NCBI RefSeq assembly: GCF_040954835.1
Contig: NC_090714.1
Coordinates: forward strand, 1,600,501 to 1,664,500
Length of the DNA stretch: 64,000 nt
Direction of reading: 5' to 3'
DNA from: Lepisosteus oculatus
Taxonomy: Eukaryota > Chordata > Actinopteri > Semionotiformes > Lepisosteidae
In this document: one piece after another, positions 43,341 to 64,000 of the stretch
Position numbering within the stretch: the stretch's first letter is position 1
Layout: each line of letters starts with the position of its first letter
The notes under the pieces: generated by a model
What the model was told of the DNA's origin: nothing
Seen by the model: the letters and a program-made list of their open reading frames with translations, nothing else
Databases searched by the model: none
Made by a program: the position numbers and the translations under genes

Positions 43341-43734
43341 TGGTGTCCATAGTGGCAGCCACTACCCCCATGGCCTCATACACCTTTTTGCAATCAGCCA
43401 GCTTTCCTTGACTGAGTTCTTCCTCCCTGCTGCTTTCACCAGCTCCCAGAGTCTATGCCTGAGCTCTCACAGTACTTGGGAGTTTTCTACTGGACACCAT
43501 TTGGCTCTGGTGCTGATCCTGCTCTAGACCTCCTTAAGAAATGGTTCATCTCCCGCCAGGTAGGTTCTGACTCTTCAAAAGCACTGGTGGGGTTACTCTG
43601 AGGCTGAGAATTTTGAGTTTATTGGAATATAACATGTACCTTGGTACAGTATACTAGTGATATGCTAATGAGTTAAATAGTTGCTGCAGTTAACCAGTTA
43701 AAAAAAGTGCAAGTAAAGCAGTATTTATAACTTT

Positions 43735-43942
43735 GACATGACCCAAGGGAAATGTGAAAGAACTTTACACAAAGAGTTGTAGGAGAATGGCACAGGCGAT
43801 CCAACCATTTTTCTAAATCAACAGCCTGTTTTCTTTCGAGCAACGGCTCCATGAGGTTATCCAATCAAACTGATATCAGTAACTGAAAGGGCTACATGGA
43901 TCAAATACTGTCCTCTCTTTTGACCTTTCTCATGTTCTTGTA
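43735..43942 (+). mobile_element. LINE 3' end (CR1/L2-type), diverged
   Basis: CTTTACACAAAGAGTTGTAG then GAGAATGGCACAGGCGATCC, a block for the ORF end, and the closing series GGGCTACATGGATCAAATAC, TGTCCTCTCTTTTGACCTTT, CTCATGTTCTTGTAA. The order is the same as in the 33.8 kb copy but the copy is more decayed. Confidence 0.65.
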
Positions 43943-44299
43943 ACTTATTACATGAACACATCAGCTGCATGACTAGAAGTAGAAAGGTGGTAAATTGAGT
44001 GCATGATAAACGTTCACACATGAAAAATCTGACTTCTTGGTGCAGAGTTAAGATGGATAAGGTTATAGAACAGTAAGTGTCCTGCAGAGAACTTTAGAGC
44101 CCACAGCTCGCCTGCATGTTTCTAAATCCTTTCATTCACATTCCTGTGGCTCTCAAACACTCATAAGGATTAAATGCACTAACTGTGATTACTCAGATGG
44201 CCATGGGAAAGGGGATTTTGAAACTTGTAACTCATGGGGGCTTCTGTAAACATGCTCGATATCTTTAACACGTTTTCACGTGGAGCCAAGAAAAAAAGC

Positions 44300-44430
44300 T
44301 GCCTGCGCCGTCAGACTGTGGCCACGCCCACTCGAATGACATCTCTCGCAGGCCACGCCCCGCGCACCTGTGCGCCAGGTTCTGCTGGAGAGAGCGGAGC
44401 TGAGTGCGTTTGTTCCGCGTCTTTTCTGAT
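44300..44430 (+). promoter_or_regulatory. CpG-rich promoter-like block
   Basis: The first CpG-dense stretch after a long AT-rich interval. It carries two CCACGCCC boxes (GGCCACGCCC twice, Sp/KLF-like) and GCGCACCTGTGCGCCAGG (CACCTG E-box). No TATA box is obvious. A strong splice donor lies 300 bases downstream, so this is the likely promoter of the plus-strand transcript at 44.4-45.74 kb. Its word order resembles the minus-strand promoter at 47.55-47.69 kb. Confidence 0.5.
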
Positions 44431-45740
44431 TCTTTTCTATTTTTCCTTTATTTGAATATAGATAAAATTTAACTCAAGTAATTATGTAGTCTAAACTTTA
44501 TATGACAAAAGGGTTAAACACGTAATTTTGTTGGGAGCTAAGTAGCACTTTTAATGTGTCTTTGTTCACAAAACTAAGCGTGTGCATTCATCCAAACCTA
44601 CGTTTGGAAAGTACTTTGTCAAGTTTTTCGTTATTTTCCAGAGTTTGTTGTGTGATAATGCTCTTCTATTCGCTTGCCACTAATACATTTTAATGGGCTT
44701 TCAAAGGACAAGATTCGTACTAAATAATGGGAGTTTAAAAGTAAGTACAAACATTTTTTTCATGTCTTTGCAAGTATCTCATTAAGAGATATTTTGCGCC
44801 ATCTGCCCTGGTGAAAACGCCGTTTGCTACTAAGAAACCTTCTTATCTTTAAATACTCGTCTAAAAACTTGTGTTCTTGTGTTTCCAGTTTGGTGTCTTC
44901 GGGCAGGACGGGCTTGGCTCAGCTGCTGAAATTATCTATGTAAGTATAAACCTTTTTGTTCGTTGACACGTATCGTATTGAAGTACACTACAGTTTTTGG
45001 AAGAAGACTCAAACTAGGCGATACTAGATTTCTCCAGGGCACAAATGGTTTTGACCCGACAACGTTGTTATGTATAGCAATCATTTTCTACTAAAACTGC
45101 GATCCAATGTCGCTTTTTTAATGCGCATAATACGGATTCATTAGAAGCCGTTTTAGCTTCCAAATTGCATCACAACAATTAAGACAACGGAACCTATAAA
45201 ACTATGGATTGATTATTTGTGTGTTAAATAAGTTTGTGCTGGTCTCTAATCGATACACTAGATGTATTGTGTCTTCGGTATTCACACTTGTAACCGCTTC
45301 AATACCCTGTAAAGCAGGAACGTTTTCCGTTACACCAGGCTGAGCGCTTTGTTCCAACTGGAAATCTTTTTCAACTGTATCAGTCGATACAGAAGCTCGA
45401 TCTAACTGGGATCATTTCGAGATCCTGTTTGTAACCGAAAGTTAATACTGATTTCTGTTGTTTTACAGGAATTGCAACAAAGTTCCAGTCTTCATTCCGG
45501 TCGCTGCCTCGGAGAAACAGTAACGTGCTGTGTGTTTCTGTTTTGACATGTAGTTGCTTGCAAATGTTTTCTTACTCTGTTGACTTGTAACACTATTTAG
45601 CGTTAATGTTGCCGTGCTTTGACACTTTGTAATTGAAATGCATGTTCATTTTCACTTTGAAGCTTGTGCATCCGACGTATTGTAATGCTTTGTTTTGTAT
45701 GCCATTTTCGCTCAATAAATTGTTGATTGAACCTTGATTT
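44400..45740 (+). ncRNA. Predicted three-exon transcript, probably non-coding
   Basis: Exon 1 ends at 44740 before the donor AAAAGTAAGTAC. Exon 2 is 44889-44939 (51 nt), between acceptor TTGTGTTTCCAG and donor TATGTAAGTA. Exon 3 starts at 45469 after TTCTGTTGTTTTACAG. AATAAA at 45714-45719 is followed by a T/G-rich stretch, so the transcript should end near 45740. All four splice sites are close to consensus, and a CpG-rich promoter precedes them. No known gene was recognised. The start site is inferred. A short reading frame crosses all three exons and is listed separately. Confidence 0.45.
44693..45546 (+). CDS. Possible 58-residue micro-ORF spanning three exons
   Basis: If exons 44693-44740, 44889-44939 and 45469-45546 are joined, an ATG at 44693 opens a frame of 58 codons to TGA 45544-45546. 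Exon 2 (17 codons, FGVFGQDGLGSAAEIIY) is of phase 0 and open. The start context is weak (T at -3, G at +4) and an in-frame stop lies just upstream. A frame of this length can occur by chance, and no homologue is known to me. There is no signal peptide or membrane segment. Confidence 0.2.
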
Positions 45741-45789
45741 TGTTCTTTGGTTTCTTGTGCAGAGTTTTGTACCCCCTTGGCCCTGAAAA

Positions 45790-46370
45790 CCCCCGGTGTT
45801 GGTGAGTTTTTTGGCGGAGAGATTTTGCTTACAGTTTGTGGCCGCAAGGGGACCCCCTATCGCTTTTTGACTTAAAAAGGTCAAAGGCTACCCCCTTTTC
45901 AAGCGTGTCCAGATTTTCCCGCCAAAAAACTTAGTATCTGGGGTTTCTCTCGGGGTCTGGTAGCAATCAAGCCGAGCCTCGCCCACCCCCCCTCATTGGA
46001 GAGGGGTAGGCGGGGGCTGGCTGATTGACCGCAGCTCTAGCCAGGCCCACTCGCTCCCGGCAGGAGAGGATGGCAGGTTGGTGGTGGCTTTGGTCCCTGC
46101 AGAGAGGCAGGTCTCCTGGGGTTGTGGACTTAGAAAGCTGTCAGTTGCAAGCTGTGACTGATGGGCTGAGTCCGCCCTGGGTGCCTCCTCTCTCTCGGGC
46201 CGAGGCCATCTCCAGCCTGCCTTCTCCTCCCCCCAGGGCTAGACCCACGCTCCCTCCTAGGGACCCTATTCCCCCCCAGACTATCTAAAAAGGCGGGCGT
46301 CCTCGCACTTTTCCAGGTCAGTGCGATGGGTTGTCGCCTTGCGGTGCGTGGCGCACGCGCAAGACAACAC
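45790..46370. promoter_or_regulatory. CpG-rich block with E2F-like sites between converging transcripts
   Basis: The stretch is rich in C and G and contains TTTTCCCGCCAAAA (45914-45927), a near-perfect two-sided E2F site, and TTTTTTGGCGGAG (45807-45819), a second E2F-like site. An AGGTCAAAGG nuclear-receptor-like half site lies near 45879. The block sits just past the predicted 3' ends of the two converging loci. It may be an independent promoter. No convincing protein frame starts here; a TTG-started frame at 46025-46288 is not supported. Confidence 0.4.
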
Positions 46371-46399
46371 TTCACACCTTCGAAAATACAGGACAATGC

Positions 46400-47690
46400 A
46401 GACAATGAAACGAGGGTTTTTATTGCAGAATTCAAAGCACATACAATAGCAGTAGTCAACAGAAAACATGCAGGTCAAGAATAAAATACAGTACTGAATC
46501 GGGACATTGCAGATCAAGCCACTGGTAACAAAAATCAAATGCAAGAAAAAGCACACATTGTCGAGAAGAACTTGGCCAACGCTCGTCGAGTTGCTGGAGT
46601 GGAGCTGGAAAGCAGATCGTCGGAGTGCAGAGAACCAGGAGCCGCAGAACTGAAGGCAAAAGAAAAAGGAGCAAGTTAACGGGATATCGGACTTGTAGAA
46701 TCGATTCACTTGAAGTTCTGAAGTCTTTTAACTTTAATAAACTGCCCCAATAAAGAAACATACAAACACGCTCAAATTCAACAAGCAAACAATAGGTAAC
46801 ATAATGAGAAACCCCAGATACACCCCGGTCCCAGTACTCCAATATTTAGAAAATAGGTTCAGCCTATTATGAATAAAAGAATCCATAAAAAAACAACCAC
46901 CGCTTTTGTGTTTCCTATTTGTATTCAGCAAAAGCACAACTAAACGAAAAGAAGTGATAACGTTTGTAGAAAAATGTTCTGGTGTTCAAATGCTGTGAAA
47001 TACGAGTCGTCTTTAATACAGGAATAAAACTTACCGCGGAAAAAAACACTTTCATAACTGGAGGCCCGTTTTTGAAATCCCTTTGTCACCTGGAGAAACA
47101 AGAAAACATACGAATTAGTACATTTAATCTTTGCTAAAGTGTATCATTCGGGAACAGAAAGCGATATTATAGCCCGATTCCGGAAGGCGGAGATACTAAC
47201 AATTAGATACACAGTTATTCATTTTATACAGCAAATTATTTAAGATAAATTACAGCTTTTTTCGTTAGAGCAAACAGAGCTAGAGATGCCATATCTGAAA
47301 TAAAACATATTTACATGAAAGGTAGTATAAGAACGCTGAAGGCAGACTTTTGAAACTTCGAGAGCACGCTCAAACAGACAGGACACTCATTTCGGCGTCC
47401 TAAAACACAAATTCAACAGAAACAAATGCAATTAACAAAAGTTGCAACAACAATACATTTTTGTCTAACTTTCCTCAAAGTCAAATTTGAGTTTTTGCAT
47501 TTAAAAGAAGAAAAATAGAAATAAAACGCAAACGCACCTCACGCCGCAGAAACTCTCCCCGCTGCCATCTTGCCGGGCGCACCTGTGGAACAGGTGGACG
47601 GGGCGTGTCCGCTGAGGAAGGTCACTCTGGGGGCGGGCTCGGCTCATGAACAACAGCTGTGCGCTCGGTTACATGGGCTCAGCACTGACG
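46400..47690 (-). ncRNA. Predicted three-exon transcript, convergent, probably non-coding
   Basis: On the minus strand exon 1 ends at 47538 (GCGTGAG before GTGCGT). Exon 2 is 47088-47035 (54 nt), between acceptor TTGTTTCTCCAG and donor GCGGTAAGTT. Exon 3 starts at 46649 after TTTTCTTTTGCCTTCAG. AATAAA lies at 46424-46419 and the end is expected near 46400. An ATG in CAAGATGGC of exon 1 opens only nine codons. The long minus-strand frame in exon 3 has no start tied to the splice sites and runs past the poly(A) signal, so coding is doubtful. It mirrors the plus-strand locus in exon number and short middle exon. Confidence 0.42.
47545..47690 (-). promoter_or_regulatory. CpG-rich promoter-like block with YY1 site and E-box palindrome
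   Basis: On the minus strand the block reads GGACACGCCCCGTCCACCTG, then a palindrome CACCTGTtccACAGGTG (47580-47596 on the plus strand), then GCAAGATGGC, a YY1-type initiator element (47565-47572 as CCATCTTG). The CpG density is high. It suits the minus-strand transcript and might also fire toward the plus side, where a third locus lies. Confidence 0.5.
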
Positions 47691-48144
47691 GTACTGAAGA
47701 TAAATAAGTCAATTTTAACAAAGCATTTAACGGCTAAGCTTTTTCCGACAACTTAATAGAACAAAATTCCCCTACGGGTCTCTTTCCTGGACTCGTTTAG
47801 CTTGCGGCCAGCTGGTCGAATCAAGAGAAATGTGCTGGAGAGAGACCCCTGTCGCTCCTAGTTAGGACTGCACCTCTCTTTCACTGCCAGTGCCACACCC
47901 ATCCTGCAGGTGTCTCAGTGGTAAAAGGGGCTGCTTTTTAGAATTGAATTCCGAACTACGCATTTATAAAGGACTTAAACCCCCCATTTGCCCTGTTTTG
48001 GAGGGCCCCGAAAATGGAGCCCCCCAAAACGGCCGGCGTGGTAGAGAACAGCCCCTTCTACAAACTCACCCCGACAGCATGAGAGCTATACCCGGGGTTT
48101 AGATCTCAAACTGACGGGAAGGCTCGGGGCTCGACTTCAACTCA
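47691..48144. other. GC-elevated flank, possibly SINE body
   Basis: The sequence up to about 48140 is richer in GC than normal for the window (CCCCCCAAAACGGCCGGC, CCCGGGGTTTAGATC). It may be the body of the tRNA-headed element that starts at 48224 on the minus strand. The link is inference. Confidence 0.3.
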
Positions 48145-48224
48145 CACGGCTCTCCGGGAGTCGATCTGCTCTCTAAACTTTAGAAGTGTCCGATGGTTTA
48201 GCCCGCGGAGCCACCAGGCCGGCC
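48145..48224 (-). repeat. tRNA-derived SINE head
   Basis: On the minus strand the A-box-like TGGCTCCGCGGGCTAAACC starts at 48213, seven bases after a possible 5' end GGCCTGG. A B-box-like AGATCGACTCC lies at 48157-48167, 46 bases downstream, which is normal tRNA spacing. The acceptor stem does not close well. It is probably the head of a SINE family not otherwise seen here, with a GC-rich body running toward 47.9 kb. Confidence 0.45.
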
Positions 48225-49638
48225 ATGCAGAATATTGGTCATGTACATCTCTTATTCAGACTTTATGTCATGTCACTTTTAGACAAAATGTCTGAGATGA
48301 TTCTAAAGACAACTTAAAAAATACACGAACGATTAAAATTACTCTAAATGTTTTATACCCCAGCTGGTGTCTGGGCAGAGTATCCCTTTAGTTCCTTTAT
48401 ACTAGCAGGTGTCACGACATGATATGTTTCCAAGTTCCAGATATAAACATAATCCTTCTAATTAAATATGTAAAAATTAAAAGCACTGCCCGTAAATATA
48501 ATATGAATTGTTTATGCATAGAAAACAGAACAGTGATAAGGATGTTAACTACAAGTTTCTCAATCAATGGGGCATCACATCGCTCCTAATTATATTAGAG
48601 ATGCTACTATTTAATATGCTATAAAATGTGAAAGTTACTGTAGTCCATACTAGTCAACTTACTAGTGGAAGCAGTGTGCCACAGGTATTCAGGAGTTTTG
48701 TATTACCTCATGTCATCTCTACGAGAGAGGTGCAAATTCATTTTGATTACTTTAAAAAGTTATCAAAATTCAATACGGTTTTATAGACTGCACACATAGG
48801 TAATACAGTGAAACGTCTTGGGGTCCACTGTTCGTGAGTGATGTACAGTACAGTAATCACAGGTGAGATTGCCCATCAAACACTAACAGTATAATTCTTA
48901 TTACTTGATCCAAACTTAAAATATAGGAATTCTGAAACACTTTCTGGGGCAAGATTGACGCTAATATCTAATATTTTACAACTGATGTTCTGTACCCCTA
49001 GGGATGAATATAGTACGTTGAATTGAACTGAAGCAAATCGTAAATATTAAATTAAAGGTTCAATAAGGATATTTAATCAGAGGCTCGGTTAGAAGTATGA
49101 AGTGGAATTGTCCTCCAAATTACTTGTGCCTGACCGACTGTTTTCAAAGCGGAGCCGGCCAACTCCAGGATCCAGTCCATGTTTTACACATTTCTAAGTA
49201 ATTAAAAGTCCGAAGCCAGGTGTGATTAATCTTGTATCAGTTGGTCTCCTTGAAAAATCGTTCTGGCAGACTTATTGCATCTTTGCCTTTAAATAGCGGC
49301 TTTGCACCTACAGGAAACGAATACGCAACGTTTCGTTTAAGTTGGGTAGGAGAATGTTGAATAAAGTTCTTCTTATTTGGATGGGAACAGTTTAAAACGA
49401 AGGCATTAGAGCTTAAGAGTGATAAAGAAAGCGGTCACTAACTGGATCTTAGAAGAGACTTTAACTTCATCAGAAGGCTTGAATCGAAACTAAACCACAA
49501 CTTTCATACTTTTAAAAGGGGTTGAAATGGAACGTTTCGTTTTAGTTGCTATTTGATGTTGCTACCTCTGTTAATGCTTGCTCAGGTCTGTTAGTGGTGT
49601 CTCAGCAGGTGTCTTATTCCCTTGTTTCTCCTCTACAG
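48225..49638. other. Intergenic, nothing recognised
   Basis: AT-rich sequence. A short direct repeat, AACGTTTCGTTT(A/T)AGTTG, occurs near 49328 and 49532, about 200 bases apart. No gene or named element was identified. Confidence 0.4.
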
Positions 49639-50240
49639 CTCCCCGGCCTTCCTGTCCTCTACAACAGCCTGGACGCCGAAGCGCAGAGCTCCCGTGTGCC
49701 GTGAAACTGGACAGATGAGCGGTCAGTTCGAAGGTGAGAATCCAACCGGTCTGCACTCTGCTTGTAGAGCCTCTTGCTTTCGGGTTTAATTAACTCTGTG
49801 CTTTTGTTTGTAAAGCAAAATTATATTAAGAGCGCGTTCGCAGCTGCGTTCACTTAATCTGAGTTCGTGGAAACATTCCCACGGGGAAACTGAGCAAAGC
49901 CGTGTTTTACCCACTGCTGACCGCTTAACACATCTTTGCGAATAAACTCCTGTTTGCCTTCCAAAAGTGGTGCTACTTTTGTAGAGGCTAAGGCGAGAGG
50001 CCAGAACATGCGACTAGATGTATTGGAAACGCTTTTTCTCCCCTGCTCAAGCAGCAGCCGGACTCACCTCGCGGTCCCAGGTGCCCACCGTCTCTCCGGC
50101 CGGCTTTCCCGACTGAAGCGTTTCCTCTCCCGGGGCTCCAGACGGCGAGCCGCCGGAGCTTTTGGATAGTGACGGCCGGCGAGTTTACGCCTGAACCTTT
50201 TCTTGTTAAATTGTTTGCAATAAACTAGTTTCCTCGGATT
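49639..50240 (+). ncRNA. Two 3' exons of a third predicted transcript
   Basis: Exon 49639-49733 lies between acceptor GTTTCTCCTCTACAG and donor GAAGGTGAGAA. The likely next acceptor is CTTTTTCTCCCCTGCTCAAG followed by CAG, ending at 50054. The last exon then runs to a poly(A) signal AATAAA at 50219-50224. Both exons are CpG-rich. An ATG in the first exon (MSGQFE) stays open across the junction for 26 codons. The first exon was not found; a start near the 47.6 kb CpG block is possible. Confidence 0.35.
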
Positions 50241-51394
50241 GTTTCTTACCCCAATTTGTTGGGGATGTTGGCGGGGTCACTTCATGCAGTAAGAGCAAGC
50301 CTCCATATACCTGTAAGATCATCCTCATGTTTCTTTAATAAGCCTTCATGTACTCCTGTAGGCTACTCAGAGTGTCGGTCTTGAATTTAGGGTGCTTCAT
50401 CTTCATCCACAATAGTTGCTGCATGAGCTTCTTTCCTGGACTATAAAACTCCAGCTGTTGCTTTTATGGACACAAAGACATGCACGCAGTGGATAAGTAA
50501 CTGCTAACTAACCCAATAAACTTACACAATTACCATGGGTAAAAGCACCCCTTTATGCATGCTTGCATTTACTTAATATCACAGCCCCCTCTAAGTGAAT
50601 ATTGCTCTTGTCCAGACTAGGTCTGGCACTAATAAGGATCTGGATGAGCAGCTCCAGTCCTGGCAGGCTCAGCTCAGGGTCTAGTCCTGCTTGCAGCTTG
50701 GCTCCTGAGTCAATCAGAGAAAAAAGATGTCACTATTTTATATTTGTTATATAGCTCTATGTAAATTCTCATATAACTGCTAAAACAAATTGCTAAACAA
50801 ACCTAACCCAATTAAAGCTATCTAAAATAACAGTACAAGTGTCAGTGATGGGTTCCTGCTAGGACAAAGTGGCCCTAAAATCATATTGTTTTTATCTCAT
50901 CTATAGCTACATCAGGCCAGGCTGGACTTGACATGCTTAGTATAATAGTAAGTCCAGGAGCATGTACAATTACCTGTTAGCAATACTGAGTCCCAGATAA
51001 AACTCTTTAGTTGAAAACACCTTGCTCTTAGGTAATCGGTATTCCATGTAAACTAAATGAAAGTGTGATGCCGCGGGGGTCACAGTCATCTGTCGGGTCG
51101 ATCAGTAGATGGAACCCCAGACCAGAACACACCTTAGGCAAATAACAGTTAAAAACACAGGTCTACCCTGATAAAATAAAACAAAAAGAGAAACTGCTCT
51201 TGAAAACAAATGTACTTGTATGAAAAAAAATATTTCTTCTCAAAGTAAGATAAATCTTCCCATTTTCTCCCTCAATAAACTAGATCCAATCAGCTATCAA
51301 ATAAAAAAAAACTTCCTTGAATTGAAAAGTTAATGTGTGCTTCTTAAGTCCATTTTAACTTGAATACTTTTTTTTCACATTCATTTCAGATTTG
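50241..51394. other. Intergenic, nothing recognised
   Basis: AT-rich sequence between the CpG zone and the LINE at 51.4 kb. No features were identified. Confidence 0.45.
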
Positions 51395-52670
51395 AATGAA
51401 TGAATTAAGCTTTATTGCCTGTAAGGGAATATGTCTTGCACAGCAAGAGCTCATAAACATAAAATATATGACAATAATACAACACAGTAATAAAAGTTCA
51501 ATACCATGACACAAAACAACATTTAACAACATTGCTCTGTCAAAACTCAATCCAGTACTGTGAGACTAAAAACAGACAATTAGTTAGTAAAGTCTAAAAC
51601 AACAATAACAGTAATAAGATCCCTACCACCAAAAAATCTTTTTGTTGTTCAACAACTGAATGCCTCTAGGCGTAAATGCTCTCTTAGGCTTTATTCAGAG
51701 GATCTGGTACCTCTCCCCAGAGTGGATGAGGAGGGTCATTGAAGATTTAATAATATGTTGTTCTATCAGACATGTTATTGAGTCCAAGGATGTCTTGGTA
51801 ATCTTGCCATCAGTCCTGATCACTTTATTCAACTTGTTTTTGTTCTGCAAGGACAAGACACCTCCCCACCTCTGAATACAAAAGGGTAGCATGCTCTGAA
51901 CAAAACTAATAAAAAAAAGTGTCAACATTGTGTTTTTGACATTAAAACTCAACATTAACTTCCTTAAAAAACACAACCTTTGGTGTACCTTCAAATACCT
52001 TGCGTCTGTATCGATGGTCCAAGTGAATTTACACTCAATATTAGTGCCAAGGCACTTATATTCGTTTACTCTTTCACCGTTAAAAAGTTTAAAAGAATAG
52101 AACATTTCTTTCTGAAATCAATCATCATTTCCTTTGTTTATAGTTTTAAAAACACTGAATTATCCGACACCAATTATACCAAGGATTTATCTCTTGTCTG
52201 TTATTCTATTCATCATCATTCAAATGTCCAATCATCCACAAAGTTGATAATCGAACAGTTGGAATAGTGGCCTCCTGTACATTTCTATTCATTAGTTTCT
52301 CCACCTTGGATTTATCATCTCTTTCAGCCTGTTTCAATTCTTCCTATATCTTCCTCTGAATCACTTTCCCCTCTCAATCTGTCACAGCTTTGAATTCCTG
52401 CTCTTTCTTTTTGGATTAGATCAGATGTTGGTGGTTCGATATGAACTTTACAGGCATTCTTAATGTTACCATAACAGGGATCTAACGTTCTAGAACCTCT
52501 TGTGTAGCCTTTTACAGACTGATCATCATTAGAGAGAACTGACTTAAGCAAACAGCCATTGAAATCTCCCTAAATTAAATTCTAAGGCAGTTTTGTAATC
52601 GGCATCAGCAGAAATATACAGAAGAGTTGCAAACGCCTGCCCAAACTCCCATGGCAGGTAGCGAGGTCAT
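51395..52670 (-). mobile_element. L2/Rex1-like LINE, 5'-truncated and internally deleted
   Basis: On the minus strand the order is: endonuclease pieces YLPWEFGQAFATLLYI (near 52655), GDFNG (near 52555) and TLDPCYGNIKNACK (near 52480); reverse transcriptase box IINFVDDW (near 52240; consensus FADDT); MMIDFRKK (near 52125); then an open C-terminal stretch (52105-51695) with EYKCLGTNIECKFTW, RLCFLRKL and RWGGVLSLQNKNKLNKVIRT. The tail ends GGCAATAAAGCTTAATTCAT then ATTC repeats at 51395. The segment between the endonuclease end and the FADD box is missing, and the active-site box is altered. Apurinic-type endonuclease plus this C terminus fits L2/Rex1-type LINEs. Confidence 0.88.
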
Positions 52671-53754
52671 AAAGAAACAGACAGGAGTCCTCGATCTGGT
52701 GAGTTAAAGGATTGTAGATCTGTCTGTTTTTTACTTCTTTTATCTTATACTATCTGTTCTTGACTATTTCTTTACCCTTTTCTTTTTTCTACTTCTCTCT
52801 TTCCCCCCTGCCCTTCCATTGTTTTGCTATGGTTTAGTTTAATACAAAGTCTTTGTTTTCCTGTTGTCTTCCAACACGTTCCCTATGTCCTTTTCCAAAT
52901 GGGAAATCATGTACTCACCATATCCAGTCAGCTGTCATCTCTGGGTTTGATTTATATGGCCTGTGGGTACAAGTGCTCCTCTGTTTTGTTCCACTTCTAT
53001 CATCATTGCAGTACTTCAGTTCCACCATCTTAACGAGATTAAAAGTCTCAGTGAAGTCTTCTTAAAGTACCTCCCATTCAGTGCAGTGCAGTGCAGTGCC
53101 CTTGGTGGCATCACAAAAGTTATACAAACAGAAATTCATAGTTCAGAACAAAGTGATGTGAAATCAAACACCAAAAGTTTACTTTCCAAAAAAACATTTT
53201 ACAAAACCTGTTTTACAAGCTGGATTACATAAAGTGCTTTACATTTGACAGGGTAATTTGTGCAAAAGAACCAGGACAGTAAAACACAGGCTGTGTGCCA
53301 GCAGAGCAGAGATACTCCTACCTGCATCCTGGCAACTGTGTCCTCCAACGAACTCAGTGTGCAGGATCTCTTCTTTCCAGAAGAAGACGCCTTCAGGTCT
53401 GAAATAAACCACAATGCACACACTCTCGATTAAAATTGGAGAGAGTCCTCTCATTAGCAAGTGAACACTAATGAGTTTCAGTTTCTCTCATTAGAAAGTG
53501 AACACACTCACAGAGATAGCTCATCTCATATGCACGCTCTTGGTGCAAATCGTGGCATTCTGCATGTATGTCCAGGTCAAGCTATGCTCAGACTTTCTGA
53601 TATGGGGGAGTCTGGGTTTTCTTCATTTTGTGTCTTGTGTTTGAATGGTGCCTGTATCATCTGTACAGGACGTCTACTGGACTGTTCCAATTGTAACAAT
53701 TCTGCATGAATGTCAAGGCCTCCTTCAAGTGTAGGTGGAATAGCTGACATTTAT
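52671..53754. other. Intergenic with a small GCAGT tandem repeat
   Basis: The repeat CAGTGCAGTGCAGTGCAGTG lies near 53079-53098. A pair of related words (CTCATTAGCAAGTGAACACT and CTCATTAGAAAGTGAACACA) lies near 53451 and 53489. No gene was recognised. Confidence 0.4.
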
Positions 53755-54573
53755 TTTTGTTGTAAATGAATAAGGGCACCAGGGTAAAATGCAATAAAAT
53801 TAAAATCCTTTTAAACATTTCATAGCTTTTTAATGTACTTTTTACTTTGTTTTCACTGCATTTACTTCATGTATAATTATTAAAATCATCTCCTGCTTCA
53901 GTGACAGTAACAGACTAATTTGTACACTGTTAAAATGATACACTATGGTAGCTGCATCTCTGGGTCAACATATCACACTGCTTAACGAGCTCATGGCTCT
54001 TTTAGCAGTTAAACTGAAATCAATGAGTTGCACTAAAACCAACGTCCACAGCGGTCAGAATAAACATTATACAAGATACATACAAGAAACATATAAACAT
54101 CTACATGCCTACACACAATATTTGTTAAAAATAGATTCTGCTGTCAAACATGATAATTATAAGAACTCTGTTCCAACTCATTTGTGGTCATTATAATGCT
54201 AAGAGTATAAAGATGTAAAACTTATTCAGAAGTCAGAAGGTTGTCTTCTATTTAATTGAAACAAAATGCGTCTTTCTATATTCCTACCAGTTCTGTTCTT
54301 TTAGGAAATTCATACATATCCTCTTTCATAGAGTGTATGAAGATTGTCATCTAGCATTTTCACGGGCTACATAGAAAATATGATTGGCTGCTCAGCTCCT
54401 TACATCTGGCCAATAGGAATTAAAAAATTGAAAAGACACCTGTTATTCACCACTATGAACAGCTCCTCAGTTTATGAACAACTGATCAATAGAAAATACA
54501 GGTACTCCAGCTCCCCAGCTGAGAATAGCACTTGTCTCTGGTTTCTGAGCTTGGTCCAATAAAAACACCTTAC

Positions 54574-54594
54574 CTATTCAGTCAGGAAGCAAAT
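54574..54594 (-). other. 21-nt micro-exon candidate, left arm
   Basis: On the minus strand a pyrimidine-rich acceptor, CTTGTTTTTTTCCAG, precedes 21 bases (ATTTGCTTCCTGACTGAATA, then G), and the donor GTAAGG follows. The right arm keeps the same arrangement at 63545-63565. Retention of acceptor, length and donor in both diverged arms suggests use as an exon, but the sequence alone cannot prove it. Confidence 0.4.
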
Positions 54595-56108
54595 CTGGAA
54601 AAAAACAAGCAACAGTATTACTACCTTGTAGCATGATCTCATATTATGCACATTTGAGCCTACTCAGAACTGGTACTGAACCTGGATATCCAGACTGTTA
54701 TGGTAAGTAGTTGGGTGGGAGAGAGCTGTAGGTGCTCTTCTACCTTGCCTCTCGCTGTAAGAGGTTCAGTCATTTGGATATGTATAAGCAAGGTCTAAAA
54801 AGATTAAAGTAGAGGGGTGCCAAACCTGGAGTCCCAGCTGAATTCCAGTCTAAACTAACAACCTGGACTTCTTTACGTTTCCCATTAATTTGTTTAATTT
54901 CTCTGTTGGTGCTTCTCACTATGTTTTGTTGCATTTCCATGAGAAACTGAATCCCTGCCAATACATCAAGCATTATGTACAGGAAAGGACAGCCTTGTTT
55001 TCATTTTGTGCAGTAATTAAATGCCTACAGTGGGATACAAGCCTCCTGCCATAAATATATTAGGTCCTGTAATGTTAAGGTACAGCTCAGGTGTCACAGT
55101 CCAAGTATTTCCAAGAAAGGCCTGCAGATATGACAATAATGCAAGCTGTGTGAGATACGCTGTATTCATGTTAAATCACATGCCTGCCCCCAGCTTCCCA
55201 CCACAATCCCGGATGTGTAGTTATACTAAATAACTAAAGGAAGACCAGCAACTGTGCCATGTCCCACACAGCAATTAAATATGAATAACTAAAATGTACT
55301 CCATCCCTGCCCTTTAGCAAAACGGTATGTGCTCTAGACTTATTAGATGACCATTAAGGACCTGGATTAACTACCCAGGTGACATTTTGAAGGAATTGCA
55401 ACAAAACCCAGGAGACCCTGCAACAATCTCCCCATCAGGAGATGATTCCTCCAGTGCTCCTAGTTAGTGGAGGATTTGTATAACTGAGCTCTATTAGCAG
55501 TTCTCCAGATGAGGTCTGGAGATCCTGCTCTAGTACAGCCTGTTACAGAAAAGGCATCTTCAAGGGGTTGGAGGTTCTTGGGCAGGCTTATAGCAGGGCA
55601 CTTCCTGTATTCATGCCAGTTAAGTGACTCTGCCCCTTTGAAGGAAGCTAGCCTGCAGCAGCTGCCACACCTGAGGTGGAACAGGCCCATTCCAGCCAGG
55701 AGACCCTGTCATCTCCCAGCTCGGCACCTTGGTTGCTGTGCTGTAGTAGTACTGACAAGCCTGTGCTCCCTTAGTCCTGTCAATACTAGTGTTCTTCTCC
55801 AGCTGCACCTCTCAAGCTATTCAATCTGTGCACTACAGGTGTGACAATCACAGAACTGAAGCTCCTTCATTAGTGCAAAGTGTGGTTTGTCTCAGAACAG
55901 TGCATCCCAACATTTGACATGTTAAGATCTAGCATTTGTTCTCCAGGTAATGCTGTTGGCCAAGGGAGAACTACCCCTGAAGGTACCATTACCAATTACT
56001 GCCCTCCCACTGATCTTCAGATCAATAAATCGATAGAGATTATCAAGTAACAGCAGCAAACTGTTCAGTTAATAGCTGTACACAAGAGACTTCCAGCAAC
56101 ACCTTCAC

Positions 56109-56114
56109 TTTATT
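56109..56114 (-). terminator. Poly(A) signal, left arm
   Basis: AATAAA on the minus strand within GTGTGCAATAAAGTGAAGGT. The matching signal in the right arm is at 62058-62063. It is the probable 3' end of the transcript-like unit in this arm. Confidence 0.5.
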
Positions 56115-56521
56115 GCACACACAGGATAGAGATGTTACAAGAGCAGGCTCAAGGACATGACAGAAGATTAGAGGAGCCCCATACACACCACATCACAGGT
56201 GCGGTGCTGAGAATCTTCCCTTCCTGTTGGAGAGCTTCAGCTGCCAATCTCCATTCCTCCCATGTGATCAAGAGGGCTCCAGACGTCACAGCACACCCCT
56301 CCTTTGTCTTTAGAAAGGGAAAGTTACACATCCTGCCTCTACACAAAAAAACTCCCCCCCCGCCCCCCCCCATCATCAGACTTCCACACCACCCCCAGAC
56401 TTGACCAGGTAAGGTACTGCTGTGAAGAAGCTCCCTTTAGCACAGAAGGACTGGGGTGTTGAACTGATGCTTTTATCCACAGTACCTTTAATCTCCACCC
56501 ATTTCAACAGCCGAGTCCTAC

Positions 56522-56775
56522 CTGTTATCTCAGTGTAGGGATGTCTCCCCACTGGCTGTGCAGCAGGGTCAAGCTGGATTTCTGTATCCCACAGACAGGA
56601 ACACACTGGGCTCCTTCTGGTATACAGCTTTCTTCAGGAGCCTCCAAACCTAGAGCCACAGAGGTGCCAAGACATACTGGAGGCGTCGATGCAAAAGTAT
56701 TGTAGATCCCCATGAAGCCTCTCATTTGCCGACTGTATTGTAGTCCTGTGCTTAAGGACAAACGGCCTCCAGAGG
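56522..56775 (-). other. Exon-like block with open frame, left arm
   Basis: On the minus strand the block lies between an AG acceptor (56777-56776) and the donor GTAGGAC (GT at 56521-56520). It holds an open frame of about 80 codons with a cysteine-rich end (CIPEGAQCVPVCGIQ). The frame closes at TAA only a few bases before the donor, so either this is a terminal coding exon with a 3' UTR intron or the frame is accidental. In the right arm the same block (61302-61570) is interrupted by stops. No homologue was recognised. Confidence 0.3.
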
Positions 56776-57187
56776 CTCTACACAAGAGTCTTTAAAAAAA
56801 TAGAAAGATTAAGCAATGTAGAGGTTTATGGAGTCGCAAAACACATTCACCATCACCAATTAGATGTGCAATGCCAACTTACTTCACAGCTTCAGCTCCT
56901 CGGCATGACTTACCAATGACCTAGCACACACACATCTCCCCCTGCTGGACAGCATCACTTACTGCAGCCCCAAGTCATAGCACAGCTTGTGAAGTCCCAC
57001 AGACGATCAACCCACTTCAGTAATACTGTCCTGGTCGCATTTTCTAAACTACTGCCATCTTGCTCTTCTCACCAAACAAATCCCAGTACTCTAGAAGCAC
57101 AGGAACATTAGAAAACCCACACTGAATAATTATCCTGTTCCTCTCCAATACAAAGCACAATATAAATACTTTCCTCCCAAACTTCAC

Positions 57188-57194
57188 TTTTATA
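57188..57194 (-). promoter_or_regulatory. TATA-like box, left arm
   Basis: On the minus strand TATAAAA in GAGGCTTATAAAAGTGAAGT. The right arm keeps the same box at 61027-61033. It could position transcription starting about 30 bases downstream, directed away from the centre of the duplication. Confidence 0.4.
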
Positions 57195-57385
57195 AGCCTC
57201 TTCATTAATTACAGGGGCTGGGCTAATTCCATGGGAACCTATCCCAAAGCTCTAAAATCCTCATGTGGAATGCCCAGGTGTGTCCACTCGGTAGTGCACA
57301 CCTGTTTCCAGATCCCTGCCTGCTCAGAAGCCATCTTGGCTCAGAGAAACACCACAGCCTGGGCTTGAGCCAAAATGGAAGGATC

Positions 57386-60300
57386 CTACAGAAGCCTTCT
57401 AGGGACACCATGACTTTGCTTTAATACATTTTCCTTCAACATTATTAGAAGTGTGTTCTTTCTAAACATATTCAGCATACCATACCTCAATCTATTTCAG
57501 AAATAGATTAAGAGAGAAAGATAATTATTTGATTATGGTTTATATTTATTCCTTATACAGATTTGTGACTTTAACTCTTTAATCACTTCTGCATCCAGAA
57601 TTAATTTTCTTCATATATCAGAACACTTGACAATGTCTGCTATGATTGGAATGGTGTTCTCAACTGATGTATCGCAAAGGAGAAACTCAGTGCTGCAGAC
57701 TCATTATAAAAACATGCTTTGCTATTAGAGTCCTCTGTATTTAAAAAAATAATAGTGATTGATGAGAGTGTTGTCATTTTACTTAACTAAGGAGTTTGAG
57801 ACAATACTTTGAGACGGAGAATTTGCTTTCCAATATTTTTGATGCCCTATATTGGGTGATGATGTTTTTAACCTATTGAACAGCTTCCTTCCATTTTCAC
57901 TGAGAATTGGTCTAATGGTTTGATTCGTTTAAACTAGTAGGGTGACTTTTCTAAATAATCAGTAGAGTCTGAAATAATTCTTTATTTGTTTCTCTGTGTG
58001 GTTTTAGTTTTTCCTCATGTACTCAAACAACCCCGTCACCTCTGAGCTTTCATTTTCATCCTTTGATTTCTGTAAATCCTTTCTCTCCTAAAAAACTGGC
58101 ATCATCGTTTCCTCCTGGTCTCCCCTTCGTAGACACAACCCATTATTAATGAATTGGTGTTACTACTTTTACCATTTTGAAAAATCCAGGGATGTGAAGG
58201 ACCATGAACATCTTCCTCCACAGTGGTCACCTATCCCCTCTCAGAAAGACCAGAAACTTGCATGAAATGTATTGTTAATCTAATCCCTGCCAGAGGAGCA
58301 TTTACAATAAACTAACACAGGGGTGTGAAGACATATAGCCCTCTTTTTCTCTGAGATTCACTGGATTGTTTCTGGCATACAAGTTGTAACTCAGATCTGC
58401 TCACATCAGTTCAGGTCCATCTCCCAGCAGGTTGCTTTAGTTTGCCAAAGCACATTCCTTGTGATCCAGATCCATTGGATCCTGCATTTACTTTCTTACT
58501 GAGCTTGACCACTAACCTCTTTGATGCTTGTTTGACAACAAGCAGCCCCAGGCCTCTCCAAAGTTACTCTCCCACAAAAGCTCTACAGCCAGCCTCAGCC
58601 AGGAGACTCTATATTCTCCATTTCTCTGAAACTCAGGGATGAGAGACTGGCATTTCCTGAGCTTTCGATCATGTGCCTCTGTTCTCTTCCCCAGGGCACT
58701 GTCAATTCAATGAGGTCTCCCAAAAGTCAATGTCAAGCTGACTATTGACTACTGACTATTGACTATTGATGATGGTTAGACTTTGGTGTGTCCTGAGATG
58801 TTGCATTAAAAAAAGCAGTTTAAAAATAGATGTCTGGCTGTCAATCATTGTCATATAAATGTAATTGTGAGTTTATTTTTATAGTTTTAACCACAGCCAT
58901 GACCATTTCTTCTGGTTTTTGGATATGGATGTATTAAAGGTCACATTTTGGGTTCTGAAATTCAAAATTATTGATGCTACCGGGCTGTGGATTTCTCAGG
59001 GAGATCACCTCCATAACCATAGCCATATCTAACAGTGTTTCAGTCTTCATACCCATGACCCACAAATGATGTGAAAACATTACTGAAGTGTCTCAAGGAA
59101 AACAATGCCCGTGTTATTTTTCCAATTCTGTTTGAGTAACTCAAGATCTATGCATCTCAGCCAGTGACAACTGCCACTGTGGGAAGGTCCTTTTCCAAAC
59201 TGATGTGTGTGAAGTCCGAGCAAAGACAGGCTGTCTGACCTCTTGCTGCTAGCCACAGAGAAAGATATCAGGACAGACAGTAATGAGGCCATTAATATAT
59301 TTAAGAACATGGCTCACAGAAGGGTACTCTTTAAAAAATAAAAGTAGTTATGTGGTACAGTATGTACAGAATGTGTAAACACTATACAAATAATGAAATA
59401 CAGGAAAACTTTATTTTATACTGCTAAATTGCTTTTCGTTGTGCTTATTGTTTATGTCTAGGTTTTTAATTGCATGTGTCCTTTTAAAATTGTGTGCTCA
59501 TTTTCCATTTTTCCCTGGTAGAGGGTTCTGTGCATGACACTGAAGGCTGTTTCTGAGTTCTCTCTGGTACTGTGTATCTAGCAAGCAGGTTACATATTTG
59601 TCTGTTCTTATTTGGAATGACTGTAACCTACACAAAATGTGTGATTGTGCTTTTTGCATTTTCAGCTCCATGAATTATTTGTACTGGCTCCATGCATTTC
59701 TAAAAGCTAAGTTAGGCACAGTTGAATTTGTGTGCTTTCAGATGAATGCCTTTAAACCAGGTTTCATGAACTAGCAACCCAGAAGTGGTAACTGAAATGA
59801 GCACTGGTCCTAACTACGTATTTAAAATATACTCTCAAATTTCTTACTGATAAGGACAAGGGTCGGTGGAAAGAAAACTTGGTACTTGACATACTTCATT
59901 TTTACATTAGTCATTTCTGTTATCTGTATTTAGTAAAGCTGAGGGCAAATGTTATTCTTTTTCTGAATTATTTTACCATGTTCTTCTGTTTTTGCACTCG
60001 TGACTTTGTTCATAAGTCATGGAAAATAATTTGTAATGCTTTTTTTTTTACTTTGTGACATGTTTATGGTACGTCATATTTACGTTATTTCTACACTTGC
60101 TATTTCGTTCAGGTGTTGTTCAAAATGCCCTGCACTGAAACATGCCTAGGTGTTGGCCCTTTCATCATCGAAGAGCTCCAAACAAGCTTACCTCTTAAAG
60201 TAAAGGAACCTCAATCTCCAAGAATGACTGTCACCTGAGTCTTTGCAAATTGGTTCTGTATATCTAACAGAAATCCTTGCACAGCCTTCTAACATCTCAA

Positions 60301-60842
60301 AGATTGAAATATGCTTTTACCCCATCCTCTCTGGCATGTGCAATAAGTTTTATACAGACATCCCAGAGAGACAAGATGAAATAACATGACCCCGTGCAGC
60401 TCACATCACATCAACTACAGAGAGTCCACATGCGCCAGAGACTCCACTTGTTTCCGCCCGTCTCTTTTTAATCTTTTTCTTCTTTTATCAGATACAATGA
60501 AATCATTCACGGATATTTCTCTTTGTTTGCAATTCATCTATTATGAATAAGATTGGACTAAGGGAGATAGGAGAATAGCTCTGTTCTTACAATAAAAATG
60601 CTCATGGTCATGAAAAGGTTCTAGGTTCAGGGTCATGTATTCAAAAAAGGTTTTCAAAATGAGCTTGACAATGCAGTAGTATGTCTTTCTAACATACAGT
60701 AAGACACTAGGTGACTATGACATTATGCTTAAAGTAACAGAGGGGTTTGACATTTTAATTTTTGGTGGGACTTTCTACCAAAATCGAGGAGACCTTGCAG
60801 TCCTATGGTTAGATCTAGATAATTCCAAAATGTAATCCTTAC
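57386..60842. other. Spacer of the inverted duplication
   Basis: About 3.45 kb without counterpart in either arm. It contains the hAT relic at 59.06-59.34 kb and a short direct repeat of GACTATTGACTA-type units at 58739-58770. The rest is AT-rich and unrecognised. Confidence 0.5.
59060..59345 (+). pseudogene. hAT transposase C-terminal domain remnant
   Basis: Plus-strand translation gives LLKCLKENNARVIFPILFE, then a stop, then LKIYASQPVTTATVGRSFSK and VKSEQRQAV. After another frame change it ends AINIFKNMAHRRVLFKK and a stop at about 59335. The block TTATVERSFSKLK is the signature of the hAT dimerisation region. Only the C terminus survives; neither terminal repeat was found. It belongs to a different, older element from the hAT at 17-18.4 kb. 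Confidence 0.75.
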
Positions 60843-61026
60843 ATTTTGGCTCAAGCCCAGGCTGTGGTGTTTCTCTGAGCCAAGATGGCTTCTGAGCAGG
60901 CAGGGATCTGGAAGCAGGTGTGCGTTATTGAGCTGGACACACCTGGCCGTTCAACATGAGGATTGTCGGGCTTTTGGGATAGGTTCCCATGGAATTAGCC
61001 AAGCCCCTGTAATTAACGAAGAGGCA

Positions 61027-61033
61027 TATAAAA
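61027..61033 (+). promoter_or_regulatory. TATA-like box, right arm
   Basis: TATAAAA within GAGGCATATAAAAGTGAAGT, the counterpart of 57188-57194. Transcription from here would run away from the centre, opposite to the left arm. Confidence 0.4.
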
Positions 61034-61301
61034 GTGAAGTTTGAGTGGAAAGCATTCATATTGTGCTTTGAATTGGAGAGGAACATGAGAAGTATTCAGT
61101 GTGGGTTTTCTAATGTTCCTGTGGCCCTGGAATAGTGGGATCTATTTGGTGAGAAGAGCAAGATGTCAATAGCTTTGAAAATTCAACCAGAACACTATTA
61201 CTGAAGCCAGCTGATCTGTGGAATTTGACAAGCTGAGCTGTGGCTGGGAGATGCAATAGGCGATGCTGCCAGTAGGGGGAGCTGGCTGTTCTTCTGTACA
61301 G

Positions 61302-61570
61302 CCTCTGGAGGTACTATGTCCCCTCTGCATAAAGGGGGCTTCATGGGCATGTATAATACCTTGCATTTATCCACAGTGTATGTCTTATCATGATGTTGTG
61401 GAATCTAATCTTTGTCACAAGAACCTCATTTCAAGGGACTAGGTTTGGAGGCTCTTGAGTGAAGCTGTATACCAGGAAGAGCCCAGTGTGTTCCTGTCTG
61501 TGGGATACAGAAACCCAGCTTGACCCTGCTGCACAGCCAGTGAGGAGAGATCCCTACACTGAAATCCCAG
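61302..61570 (+). other. Exon-like block, right arm
   Basis: It lies between acceptor CTGTTCTTCTGTACAG and donor CCCAGGTAGGAC and is the counterpart of 56522-56775. The frame open on the left is broken here by stops, for example TGA within CTCTTGAGTGAAG. If the unit codes for a protein, this copy is a pseudogene; if it is an RNA gene, that does not matter. Confidence 0.35.
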
Positions 61571-62057
61571 GTAGGACACTGCTGTACTCGGCTCAGCTGT
61601 TGAAAGGGTTAGCAGTTTAACGTACTCTGGATAAAAGCAACAGTCCAACACCCCAGTCCTTTTGTGCTAAAGGGAGCTTCCTCACAGCATCTCCACTGAA
61701 GAGGGTGTGGTGTGGAGATCCTTCAATTATGTGGGTAAGGTTGAGGAGCTCTCTATGCCTGAGAGTCCAGAGTGTGACTGGCCTAGGTAGGAATGTTGCT
61801 GGTATTGAACTGTGTTTCTGAGACCATGTTACAAAGTCAGAACTTGGTCATGTAACCTCTTTCCTTGCCCCCTGCAAGAAAGTGCCCGGTAGATCACGTT
61901 GGAAGAATGGAGGCTGGCAACTGAAACTCCCCAACAGGAATGGGACATCCTCCACACTGCATCTGTAATGTGGAACCAAGATGTGGTTTGTATGCTGATC
62001 CTCTGACCTTCTGTCAGAACCTTGACCCAGATCTTGTAGCAACTGTATTGTCTGTGC

Positions 62058-62063
62058 AATAAA
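62058..62063 (+). terminator. Poly(A) signal, right arm
   Basis: AATAAA within CTGTGCAATAAAGTGAAGGT, the counterpart of the left-arm signal at 56109-56114. Confidence 0.5.
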
Positions 62064-63544
62064 GTGAAGGTGTCACTGGAAGTCTGTTGTGTACAGCCAT
62101 TAACTTCTATGAACTGTCCTCTGGTGTTGTGGTAGCACTGTATATTCTCCAGTGCTTTATTGATCTGAAGATCAGTGGAAGGATAGTAGATAATAGTACC
62201 TTCAAGGGTAGCTTTTCTTAGGCAACAGCGTTACCTGGAGGAGAATGGCTATATCTTAATCTGTATATGGAGAAAGTTGGAGAGGTCTCCTGTTTGGTCT
62301 TGGAGATAAATCTTGTACTAACACTTGAGCTTCAGTTATGCAGATATCACACCTGTAATGCACAAATTTAACTAGCCTGAGCCCTGCAACTGCAGACGTC
62401 TACTAGTGTGGACAGGACATATTGAATAGCTTGAGAGGTGCAACTACAGAAGAACCCTGGTATGGACAGGACCAAGGGAGCACAGGCTTGTCAGTGCTGC
62501 TACAGCACAGCAACCAAGGTGCCAAGCTGGGAGATGACGGGGTCTCCTGGCTGGAGTGGGCCTGTTCCACCTCAGGTGTGGCAGCTTCTGCAGGCTGGTT
62601 TCCTTCTTCAAAGGTGCGGAGTAGCTTAACTGGCATGAATCCTGAAAATGCCCTGCAATCCTACCTGCCTGCCCAGGCACCTCCAACCCCTTGGAGATGC
62701 CTTTTCTGTAACCGGCTGTACTAGAGCAGGGATCTCCAGTCCTCATCCTGAAAACTGCGAATGGAGCTCAGTTATACAAAGCAACCACTATCTAACTATG
62801 AGCACTGGAGGAAGATCTTATGCTGCTTTGTAAGTGCATCACTCACTGATGGGAGATCCTTGTAGGGTCTTCTGGGTTTTGTTGCAACTCTTTCAAATTT
62901 TTACACCACCTGGGTGGTTAGTCCAGGTCCTTAATGGTCATTTAATAAGTGTAGAACCTGCTGAGCTCGGACTCCCCAAAAGCAGGGGTGAGAGCGTTTC
63001 AGCTTCATCTAGAGCACATACAGTTTTGCTAAAGTGCAGGGATGGAGTACATTTATTTTAGTAATTTAGATTTAATTGGAAATACTTAGACTGTGAGACG
63101 AGAGCTATACCCTAACATTTCAGGATCTAACTTATCTTCATGCTCAGAAGGGTTTTGACATATTGACATTTATCCTACTGCAGTCATTTCGCTACTGCAC
63201 AAATCTGAAGTAGGCTGTGCTTTGCATATTCCAGCAGTATCTGGGGATATGAGAAATGAATTGAATGGGTTCCAGTTAGTCTAGACTGGAATTTAAAAGT
63301 AACAAGGTTAACATCCCTACACTTTAGGCTTCATGGACATCCCTTAAACATATCATCCAAATGACTGAACCTCTTACAGAGAGAGGTAAGATAGAAGAGC
63401 ACCTACAGCTCTCTCCCACCCCACTCACTACTTACCATAACAGTCTTGTTTTTCAGGATCTGTACCAGTCCTGAGTAGACTCAAATGTGCATAATATGAG
63501 ATCAAGCTACAAGGTTTTAATACTGTTGCTTGTTTTTTTCCCAG

Positions 63545-63565
63545 ATATGATTCCTGGCTGAAGAG
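63545..63565 (+). other. 21-nt micro-exon candidate, right arm
   Basis: Acceptor TTGTTTTTTTCCCAG, then 21 bases (ATATGATTCCTGGCTGAAGA, then G), then donor GTGAGG. The left arm keeps the same length and both splice signals at 54574-54594, with differences only inside the block. Confidence 0.4.
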
Positions 63566-63578
63566 GTGAGGAGGTTTT

Positions 63579-63735
63579 ATTGGAGAAAGCTCCAGAGACA
63601 AGCTCTGTCAGCTGGGGAGGCTGGAGTATTCCTATTGGTCAGTTGCTCATATGCCGAGGAGCTGTTTGCATTGGTTAATAAGAGGCATATATTCAATTTC
63701 TATTGACCAGACGTAAAGATCTGAGCAGCCAATCA
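63579..63735 (+). promoter_or_regulatory. CCAAT-box cluster
   Basis: Three ATTGG (63579, 63634, 63670) and one CCAAT (63729-63733) within about 155 bases, a spacing pattern typical of NF-Y-bound promoters. Several are kept in the left arm (ATTGG 54383-54387, CCAAT 54420-54424 and 54556-54560). It could drive a second transcript outward of the micro-exon, or be read from the other strand. Confidence 0.35.
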
Positions 63736-64000
63736 GATTGTTTTCTAGGTAGCCAGTGACTAGATGCTAGATGACAATCTTCATACACTCCAGGCAGGTG
63801 TGGCCGCCATAGTGTGTTCGTATAGTAGAGAGTTTTAAAAGTGTGGGACTCACAAGTCAGTGTTCTTGTGGTCAGTGAAGCAGAAGATTTTAATGACTAA
63901 CTATAAATCAAGTAAATGCAGTAAAAACCAAGTTAAAAGTACATCATTGTCTAAAAGGAATTAAATTGCATGTTATCCTAGTGCCCTTACTAAATTACAA

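Follow-up and report, generated by a model that had tools for sequence, protein, structure and literature searches.

An inverted pair of sequences near the right end of a 64,000-nt window of the Lepisosteus oculatus genome (C19:1600501-1664500 on contig NC_090714.1; hereafter 'the window') belongs to a multi-copy family that is concentrated on a few contigs and carries two near-invariant promoter cores, here called P1 and P2, amid diverged flanks. Several splice sites and a poly(A) signal are retained across copies, and no reading frame is retained at P2. Given this constraint on promoters and several RNA-processing signals, with none on a frame, in tens of copies, we consider the family to be probably a duplicon of about 15-17 kb, copied mainly within a single contig of chromosome size and also onto several further contigs, that bears two short noncoding transcription units with constrained promoters. 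From the sequence we infer that these promoters fire, that the RNAs are made and that copies have been kept since the RNAs, or their transcription, matter. Positions beyond the right window edge are given below as window coordinates continued past that edge ('ext').

Promoter cores and RNA-processing signals

P2 lies about 10 kb beyond P1 on the same strand, in a CpG-rich region of an otherwise CpG-poor unit (observed/expected CpG 0.5-1.1 around the P2 of the right-hand unit, ext 68335-74835). When its 33-nt core was scanned as a pattern over the whole 1.2-Gb genome with up to 3 mismatches, a procedure free of the best-match bias of fetched copies and giving 0 places for reversed-pattern controls, we found 68 places, with 0, 1, 2 and 3 mismatches in 50, 17, 1 and 0 of them. 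A control 33-mer about 95 nt downstream, in predicted intron 1, was found in 30 places, all on C19, with the same mismatch classes holding 6, 8, 8 and 8. As the scans stop at 3 mismatches, decayed cores are uncounted. A 30-copy alignment holds 1244 windows of 33 nt, and the 15 with the least variation all begin at 71304-71319, with mean mismatches of 0.43-0.67 versus 4.19 overall. All 30 covering copies have CAAGATGGC(G/A)GC, with G in 22 and A in 8, so that a TISU-type motif SAASATGGCGGC, following the definition given in the account of PMC5577775, stands at the first ATG.

Most splice sites of the predicted P2 RNA are kept above background in this alignment while the frame is lost. The exon-1 donor and exon-2 acceptor dinucleotides are present in 30/30 copies each, the exon-3 acceptor in 29/29 and the exon-3 donor in 16/17, compared with a background retention around P2 of 0.727 for GT and 0.741 for AG, where 9% and 12% of sites, respectively, are fully kept. 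The AATAAA at 72496 is kept in 7/8. Two singletons on contigs C2 and C21, whose P2 cores have one mismatch each, also keep the exon-1 donor and exon-2 acceptor. The corresponding features of the left-hand unit in the window are:

44001-50500, no strand: CpG-rich domain, observed/expected 0.4-1.1 per 500 nt (mostly below 0.4 in the rest of 40001-64000)
47564-47596 (C19:1648064-1648096), minus strand: P2 33-nt core, an exact copy ending in CAAGATGGC (YY1/TISU-like), from the pattern scan
47315-47399, minus strand: predicted P2 exon 2, 85 nt, from the unit alignment
47035-47089, minus strand: predicted P2 exon 3, 55 nt, from the unit alignment
46419-46649, minus strand: predicted P2 exon 4, as far as its AATAAA (46419-46424), from the unit alignment

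P1 (60842-61040) is conserved across 40 copies, and conservation falls directly after the TATA box that ends the block. Its mean pairwise identity is 0.874 versus 0.664 for the downstream flank (61045-61280), higher in 771 of 777 pairs and with a positive average in 40/40 copies; versus the roughly 230 nt upstream (0.728) it is higher in 721 of 741 pairs, a comparison that excludes the right-arm copy with its unrelated upstream flank. Of the 40 copies, 36 have TATAAAA. About 1 kb downstream, the AATAAA at 62058 is kept in 10/10 aligned units, against a background in which mean hexamer retention is 0.253 and 1.3% of 1174 hexamers are fully kept. A donor at 61571 has GT in 8/8 units and an acceptor at 61936 has AG in 10/10; identity between the two is mostly 0.57-0.71 (one 50-nt window reaches 0.83) versus 0.77-0.87 in the flanking blocks. 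The original prediction, made from the window's letters, had suggested copies of an undescribed transcription unit rather than a random repeat, and the P1, AATAAA and donor counts agree with it. The P1 features in the window are:

57180-57384, minus strand: left-unit P1 promoter block, with TATA box at 57187-57194 and CAAGATGG at 57331-57338 (40-copy conservation)
56522-56653, minus strand: left-unit exon-like block of the P1 unit, donor at 56521 (arm alignment)
56102-56116, minus strand: left-unit P1 poly(A) signal GCAATAAAGTGAAGG (unit alignment)
60842-61040, plus strand: right-unit P1 promoter block, TATAAAA at 61027 (40-copy conservation, pattern scan)
61443-61570, plus strand: right-unit exon-like block of the P1 unit, donor GTAGGA at 61571, 5' edge uncertain (unit alignment)
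61938-62082, plus strand: predicted terminal P1 exon, acceptor AG at 61936-61937 and AATAAA at 62058-62063, each signal in 10/10 units, 3' end assumed

Two further elements of the first description held up only in part. A 21-nt micro-exon at 63545-63565 (plus strand) does have AG and GT in both arms, but in 11 other units the acceptor is kept in 7, the donor in 9 and both in only 5, and we rejected it. CCAAT boxes are indeed common to both arms at 3 positions, but CCAATCAG at 63729 is kept in 0/9 aligned units, and the CCAAT cluster is therefore no family feature as aligned.

A full unit would comprise two short RNA genes on the same strand. The P1 gene would be TATA-driven, about 1 kb long and end at its AATAAA; the P2 gene would have a CpG-rich promoter with a YY1/TISU-like CAAGATGGCGGC, be spliced and measure about 1.2 kb. 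YY1 at P2 and a TATA-type factor set at P1, both with predicted binding, would start RNA polymerase II, the products would be short capped, spliced and polyadenylated noncoding RNAs, and their dose would be set by copy number.

Extent, copy number and placement of the units

The two arms (53760-57384 and 60835-64000) form a real inverted repeat, recovered both by a mechanical search that gave 19 inverted pairs and by blastn. A gapped alignment of left-arm 53760-57400 with right-arm 64000-60827 has 84.2% identity over 2788 aligned columns and a score of 1454.5, where five letter-shuffled versions of the right arm score 2.0-6.7. Identity is uneven along the arms (60-column block variance of 18.2 versus 8.0 under a binomial). 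The arms are separated by an inner gap of 3450 nt and have in common a TATA box (left 57194, right 61027), an AATAAA (left 56114, right 62058) and a GTAGGA donor (left 56521, right 61571). All three signals had been noted in both arms beforehand, as had outward-facing arms of at least 3.2 kb and a 3.45 kb spacer, and the earlier estimate by eye of 85-90% identity is close to the measured value. In a splice-site scan confined to the arms, shared sites exceed those of column shuffles, but minus-strand donors are no more frequent than in the reversed sequence (6 versus 9; 5 versus 4), and because of this the splice question is undecidable from two arms alone.

The ends originally given to the feature proved to be those of the window. 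Each arm is a slice of a unit of about 15-17 kb that extends outward, on the left to about 42505 and on the right for 12.5 kb past the window to ext 76464 (about C19:1676964). The right-arm continuation matches the window's left flank down to 42505, with 5.86 kb of the match 96% identical; segment by segment, identity between the two units is a mosaic of 66-96%, and copies differ by 15-35% over much of the unit. The next unit follows 17.7 kb downstream in the same orientation, with its P1 at ext 78541, and in six regions, of which the window's is one, 14 other units, whole or partial, align co-linearly with the right unit, for up to about 15 of its 17.7 kb. The part of the spacer at 58750-60830 is practically single-copy, its 8 genome candidates comprising, besides the part itself, a single piece of 312 nt and six of 38-48 nt. 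A short palindrome, CCAAAATGTAATCCTTACATTTTGG, sits at the right-unit breakpoint (window 60825-60849). In the window, the layout is:

42505-58725, minus strand: left unit, with P1 at 57384, P2 at about 47.6 kb and an upstream flank common to other units up to 58725 (alignment)
58726-60834, no strand: practically unique spacer part outside the unit, with the right-unit breakpoint at its right edge (genome candidates, alignment)
60835-64000, plus strand: right unit, 5' part, continuing to about C19:1676964 (ext 76464) (alignment)

The family is crowded on few contigs of an assembly that has 813, and C19, with most of the copies, makes up 1.5% of the genome. The 68 P2 cores divide into 37 on C19, 18 on C26, 8 on C27, 3 on C20 and 1 each on C2 and C21. 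A scan for the P1 core under the same conditions gave 35 places (26 on C19, 3 on C20, 2 each on C26 and C27, and 1 each on C16 and C22), so that the two cores together occupy eight contigs. Searches with longer queries gave a similar distribution: the 461-nt P1 region had 44 candidates, of which 40 were scored (26 on C19, 6 on C26, 4 on C27, 3 on C20 and 1 on C16), and the P2 region had 95, with 35, 3 and 2 of the 40 scored on C19, C26 and C27. As a control, a dispersed repeat of about 300 bp from the window gave 6102 candidates, and its 40 scored (best) copies lie on 22 contigs, with only the query itself on C19. Copies of that repeat stand in the window at 4589-4898, 13048-13330 and 25272-25541.

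A genome search with the arms had been proposed to distinguish a single pair from a high-copy unit, with hundreds of copies, uniform divergence and an absence of spliced reads regarded as the mark of an ordinary repeat; on the first two counts it instead gave several dozen copies of strongly non-uniform divergence. Homologous blocks of more than 1 kb occur at several non-allelic sites, as in segmental duplications, and the family is mostly intrachromosomal, interspersed and mosaic, with 37/68 P2 and 26/35 P1 cores on C19. The idea of one head-to-head pair was not supported. Among the 40 scored P1 places there are ten neighbour pairs closer than 25 kb, eight on the same strand at a spacing of 15-21 kb, one convergent and only one, the window's, head-to-head. 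A quick tree, built from 36 of the 40 P1 copies after omission of 4 short ones, does not place the window's two arms as sisters, although the group that holds the left copy without the right has a Shimodaira-Hasegawa-like approximate likelihood ratio test (SH-aLRT) value of 91, below the 95 mark. Because same-strand pairs prevail, no other close pair is head-to-head and the arms are not sisters, the head-to-head arrangement looks incidental. The tree groups copies by contig (6 changes versus a shuffled-label mean of 10.7, as low in 0 of 200 shuffles), and near-identical pairs at 2417/2432 with 3159/3144 kb and 5464/5484 with 6238/6218 kb suggest that blocks of several units have recently been duplicated within C19. 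Another inverted pair, wider than the window's, was seen at C26:2250001-2290000 (loci L022-L025), where two tail-to-tail units with outer ends about 30 kb apart match the window's units at very similar identities.

This placement bears directly on the alternative that the units are a family of transposable elements (a long non-autonomous element, for instance) in which the promoter of the master element persists in the copies. Interspersed copies, a promoter-like 5' block and a fossil reverse-transcriptase-like piece inside the unit would all fit such an origin, and with a selected master, promoter conservation would be expected among its copies. We nevertheless regard it as improbable. The genome-wide dispersal of such elements is missing, with cores on eight contigs, mostly C19, as opposed to 22 contigs for the best copies of the dispersed repeat; eight of ten close P1 pairs are tandem on the same strand at 15-21 kb; sequence upstream of P1, beyond the block, is common to several units; and the scanned open reading frames (ORFs) give no convincing protein domain of the unit's own. 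Nor does the contrast of 50/17/1/0 with 6/8/8/8 mismatches within the same units resemble neutral decay after insertion. The fragment in question, at window 51695-52117 (minus strand), is one that we take by eye to be reverse-transcriptase-like, and a similar ORF occurs in another unit (L014:109-375, plus strand).

Coding potential, competing origins and weak points

That no known protein is recognised in the arms, as noted at the outset, was upheld: 99 stop-to-stop ORFs of at least 38 codons gave only weak Pfam matches (best E 0.012), and substitutions between the arms are distributed close to flat over codon positions (123/137/142). Pfam was also searched with 39 ORFs from the spacer and 7 from elsewhere in the window (at least 38 codons), with the longest 150 of 339 (at least 30 codons) from the right-unit continuation and with 90 of 318 (at least 80 codons) from other regions. 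Over all scanned ORFs the only convincing matches are to ELFN1, a reverse transcriptase and a SMAP-domain exon, and the others (E 0.0007-0.33) were taken as chance. The first of these is the window's ordinary gene, a single-exon ELFN1 coding sequence at 6355-8769 on the plus strand (Pfam Fn3_ELFN, 8.8e-41; PDB ELFN1 chains). The SMAP match (5.2e-18) was assigned to an exon at C19:3055315-3055671 (L013:315-671, plus strand) because a SMAP-type motif is present there; this exon, about 4 kb from the nearest unit match, belongs to an ordinary gene near a unit, presumably KNOP1.

If the units were relics of an amplified protein-coding gene family, pseudogenes still carrying the promoter of their parent, the good initiator context of the P2 ATG would be explained. 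The C2 and C21 singletons lack the codon-10 stop of most C19 copies and, by eye, read a little further, and the account in PMC5577775 reports other long noncoding RNAs that descend from coding genes. We find this origin very improbable. In 26/30 copies the P2 ATG frame meets a stop after 4 or 9 codons, exon 2 is 85 nt long in 15/30 and between 53 and 195 nt in the rest, with lengths not in steps of 3, and neither codon-position bias between the arms nor a Pfam domain was recognised; promoters of pseudogenes should moreover decay, and these cores have not. It is just as doubtful that a neutral segmental-duplication family was homogenised by gene conversion with the conserved blocks as hot spots, which the mosaic arm identity (66-96% by segment) and the recent block duplicates on C19 would suit, since conversion tracts would need to be limited to a short core, some tens of nucleotides long, that is found in 68 places on six contigs, and exact in nine places on C26 and eight on C27, when a control 33-mer about 95 nt away is found, within the same 3 mismatches, in 30 places and none off C19.

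Several observations weigh against our preferred reading of a duplicon with two short noncoding units. The alignments use 30-40 fetched copies, mostly the best-matching, a choice that favours conserved copies, and the P2 core was picked for scanning since it already looked the most conserved and was set against a single control 33-mer. Some signals are poorly kept: the P2 exon-2 donor has GT in 23/30 copies, with 55 of 91 GT sites better kept; the P2 exon-4 acceptor has AG in 6/8 other covering units (5/8 rows in another alignment); and a P1 donor at 61149 is kept in 5/6. In the neighbourhood of P1, 10% of GTs and 18% of AGs show full retention. There, 7 GTs and 13 AGs are retained in every unit, and the donor at 61571 and acceptor at 61936, which were picked from among these for their sequence context, are weak when taken singly. 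Part of the uniformity could come from gene conversion, or from a few sources that were amplified repeatedly, given the near-identical blocks and the 96% identical 5.86-kb stretch, and the constraint on the promoter cores could reflect a DNA-level role, such as a boundary or a YY1 platform, with no functional RNA.

With regard to structured RNA, Rfam gave no family at gathering level, and five sub-threshold matches were taken as chance. A 226-nt near-palindromic hairpin (L009:8705-8930, plus strand) folds with its flanks as RNA at -151.5 kcal/mol (z -7.6), and over 22 aligned rows most of its columns are at least 90% conserved. We rejected it as a selected RNA structure: 15 of 17 variable pairs in these rows include pair-breaking cells, and there is no both-side change. 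Its counterpart in the window is:

46033-46219, minus strand: hairpin element of the left unit, with the first 41 or so of its 226 nt missing (alignment)

Known systems and significance

A literature search found no description of such a duplicon family, which is no proof of absence. Among known systems, copies of the primate core duplicon LCR16a lie largely on one chromosome. As described in the account of PMC7419210, LCR16a forms interspersed segmental duplications around a protein-coding gene, NPIP, with a maintained open reading frame. The family described here resembles that description in having a unit serially copied to interspersed blocks, mosaic with flanking duplications, and a transcription unit at its heart. 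It differs from it in that no open reading frame is maintained at P2, the constraint being instead on promoters and some RNA-processing signals.

For P2, the closest comparison is JPX, which in the account of PMC5577775 descends from the coding gene USPL and in which similarity between human and other mammals is confined to the region around an ORF bearing TISU, an element whose definition goes back to PMC2518114, the peptide not being conserved. As far as that account of JPX goes, P2 is like it in its first exon, which carries a TISU-type AAGATGGCGGC, in its short ORF with a non-conserved peptide, and in that the spliced noncoding RNA, here a predicted one, is most strongly conserved around that start. 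By this analogy the P2 first exon, of TISU/YY1 type, resembles JPX in an apparently close parallel. Unlike JPX, P2 is present in tens of copies.

The unit's repetition also recalls chromosome-restricted noncoding repeats. DXZ4 and Firre are X-linked, YY1/CTCF-rich repeats of this kind with CpG-rich YY1-type promoters, and DXZ4 is a compact tandem macrosatellite. The family has the chromosome restriction, the noncoding repeats and the CpG-rich promoters of YY1 type in common with them, YY1 being predicted here; unlike DXZ4, its units are 15-17 kb long and interspersed over megabases, and nothing ties C19 to a sex chromosome. A more far-reaching interpretation, which we put forward tentatively and consider rather unlikely, is that nearly 70 noncoding RNA loci gathered on a few chromosomes, with almost every recognisable copy under purifying selection at its promoter or first exon, act together on their host chromosomes, through their dose or as a series of stations bound by YY1, forming a chromosome-scale regulatory element system in a vertebrate.

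Duplicated noncoding loci would be expected to decay; here, drift has reached 15-35% over much of the unit, and yet 50 of 68 places have an exact 33-nt P2 core. If the RNAs are made, the family, with its tens of copies, would be a natural series in which to study why a long noncoding RNA gene stays alive and whether noncoding copy number is selected, and it would be a noncoding counterpart of the protein-coding core duplicons of primates.

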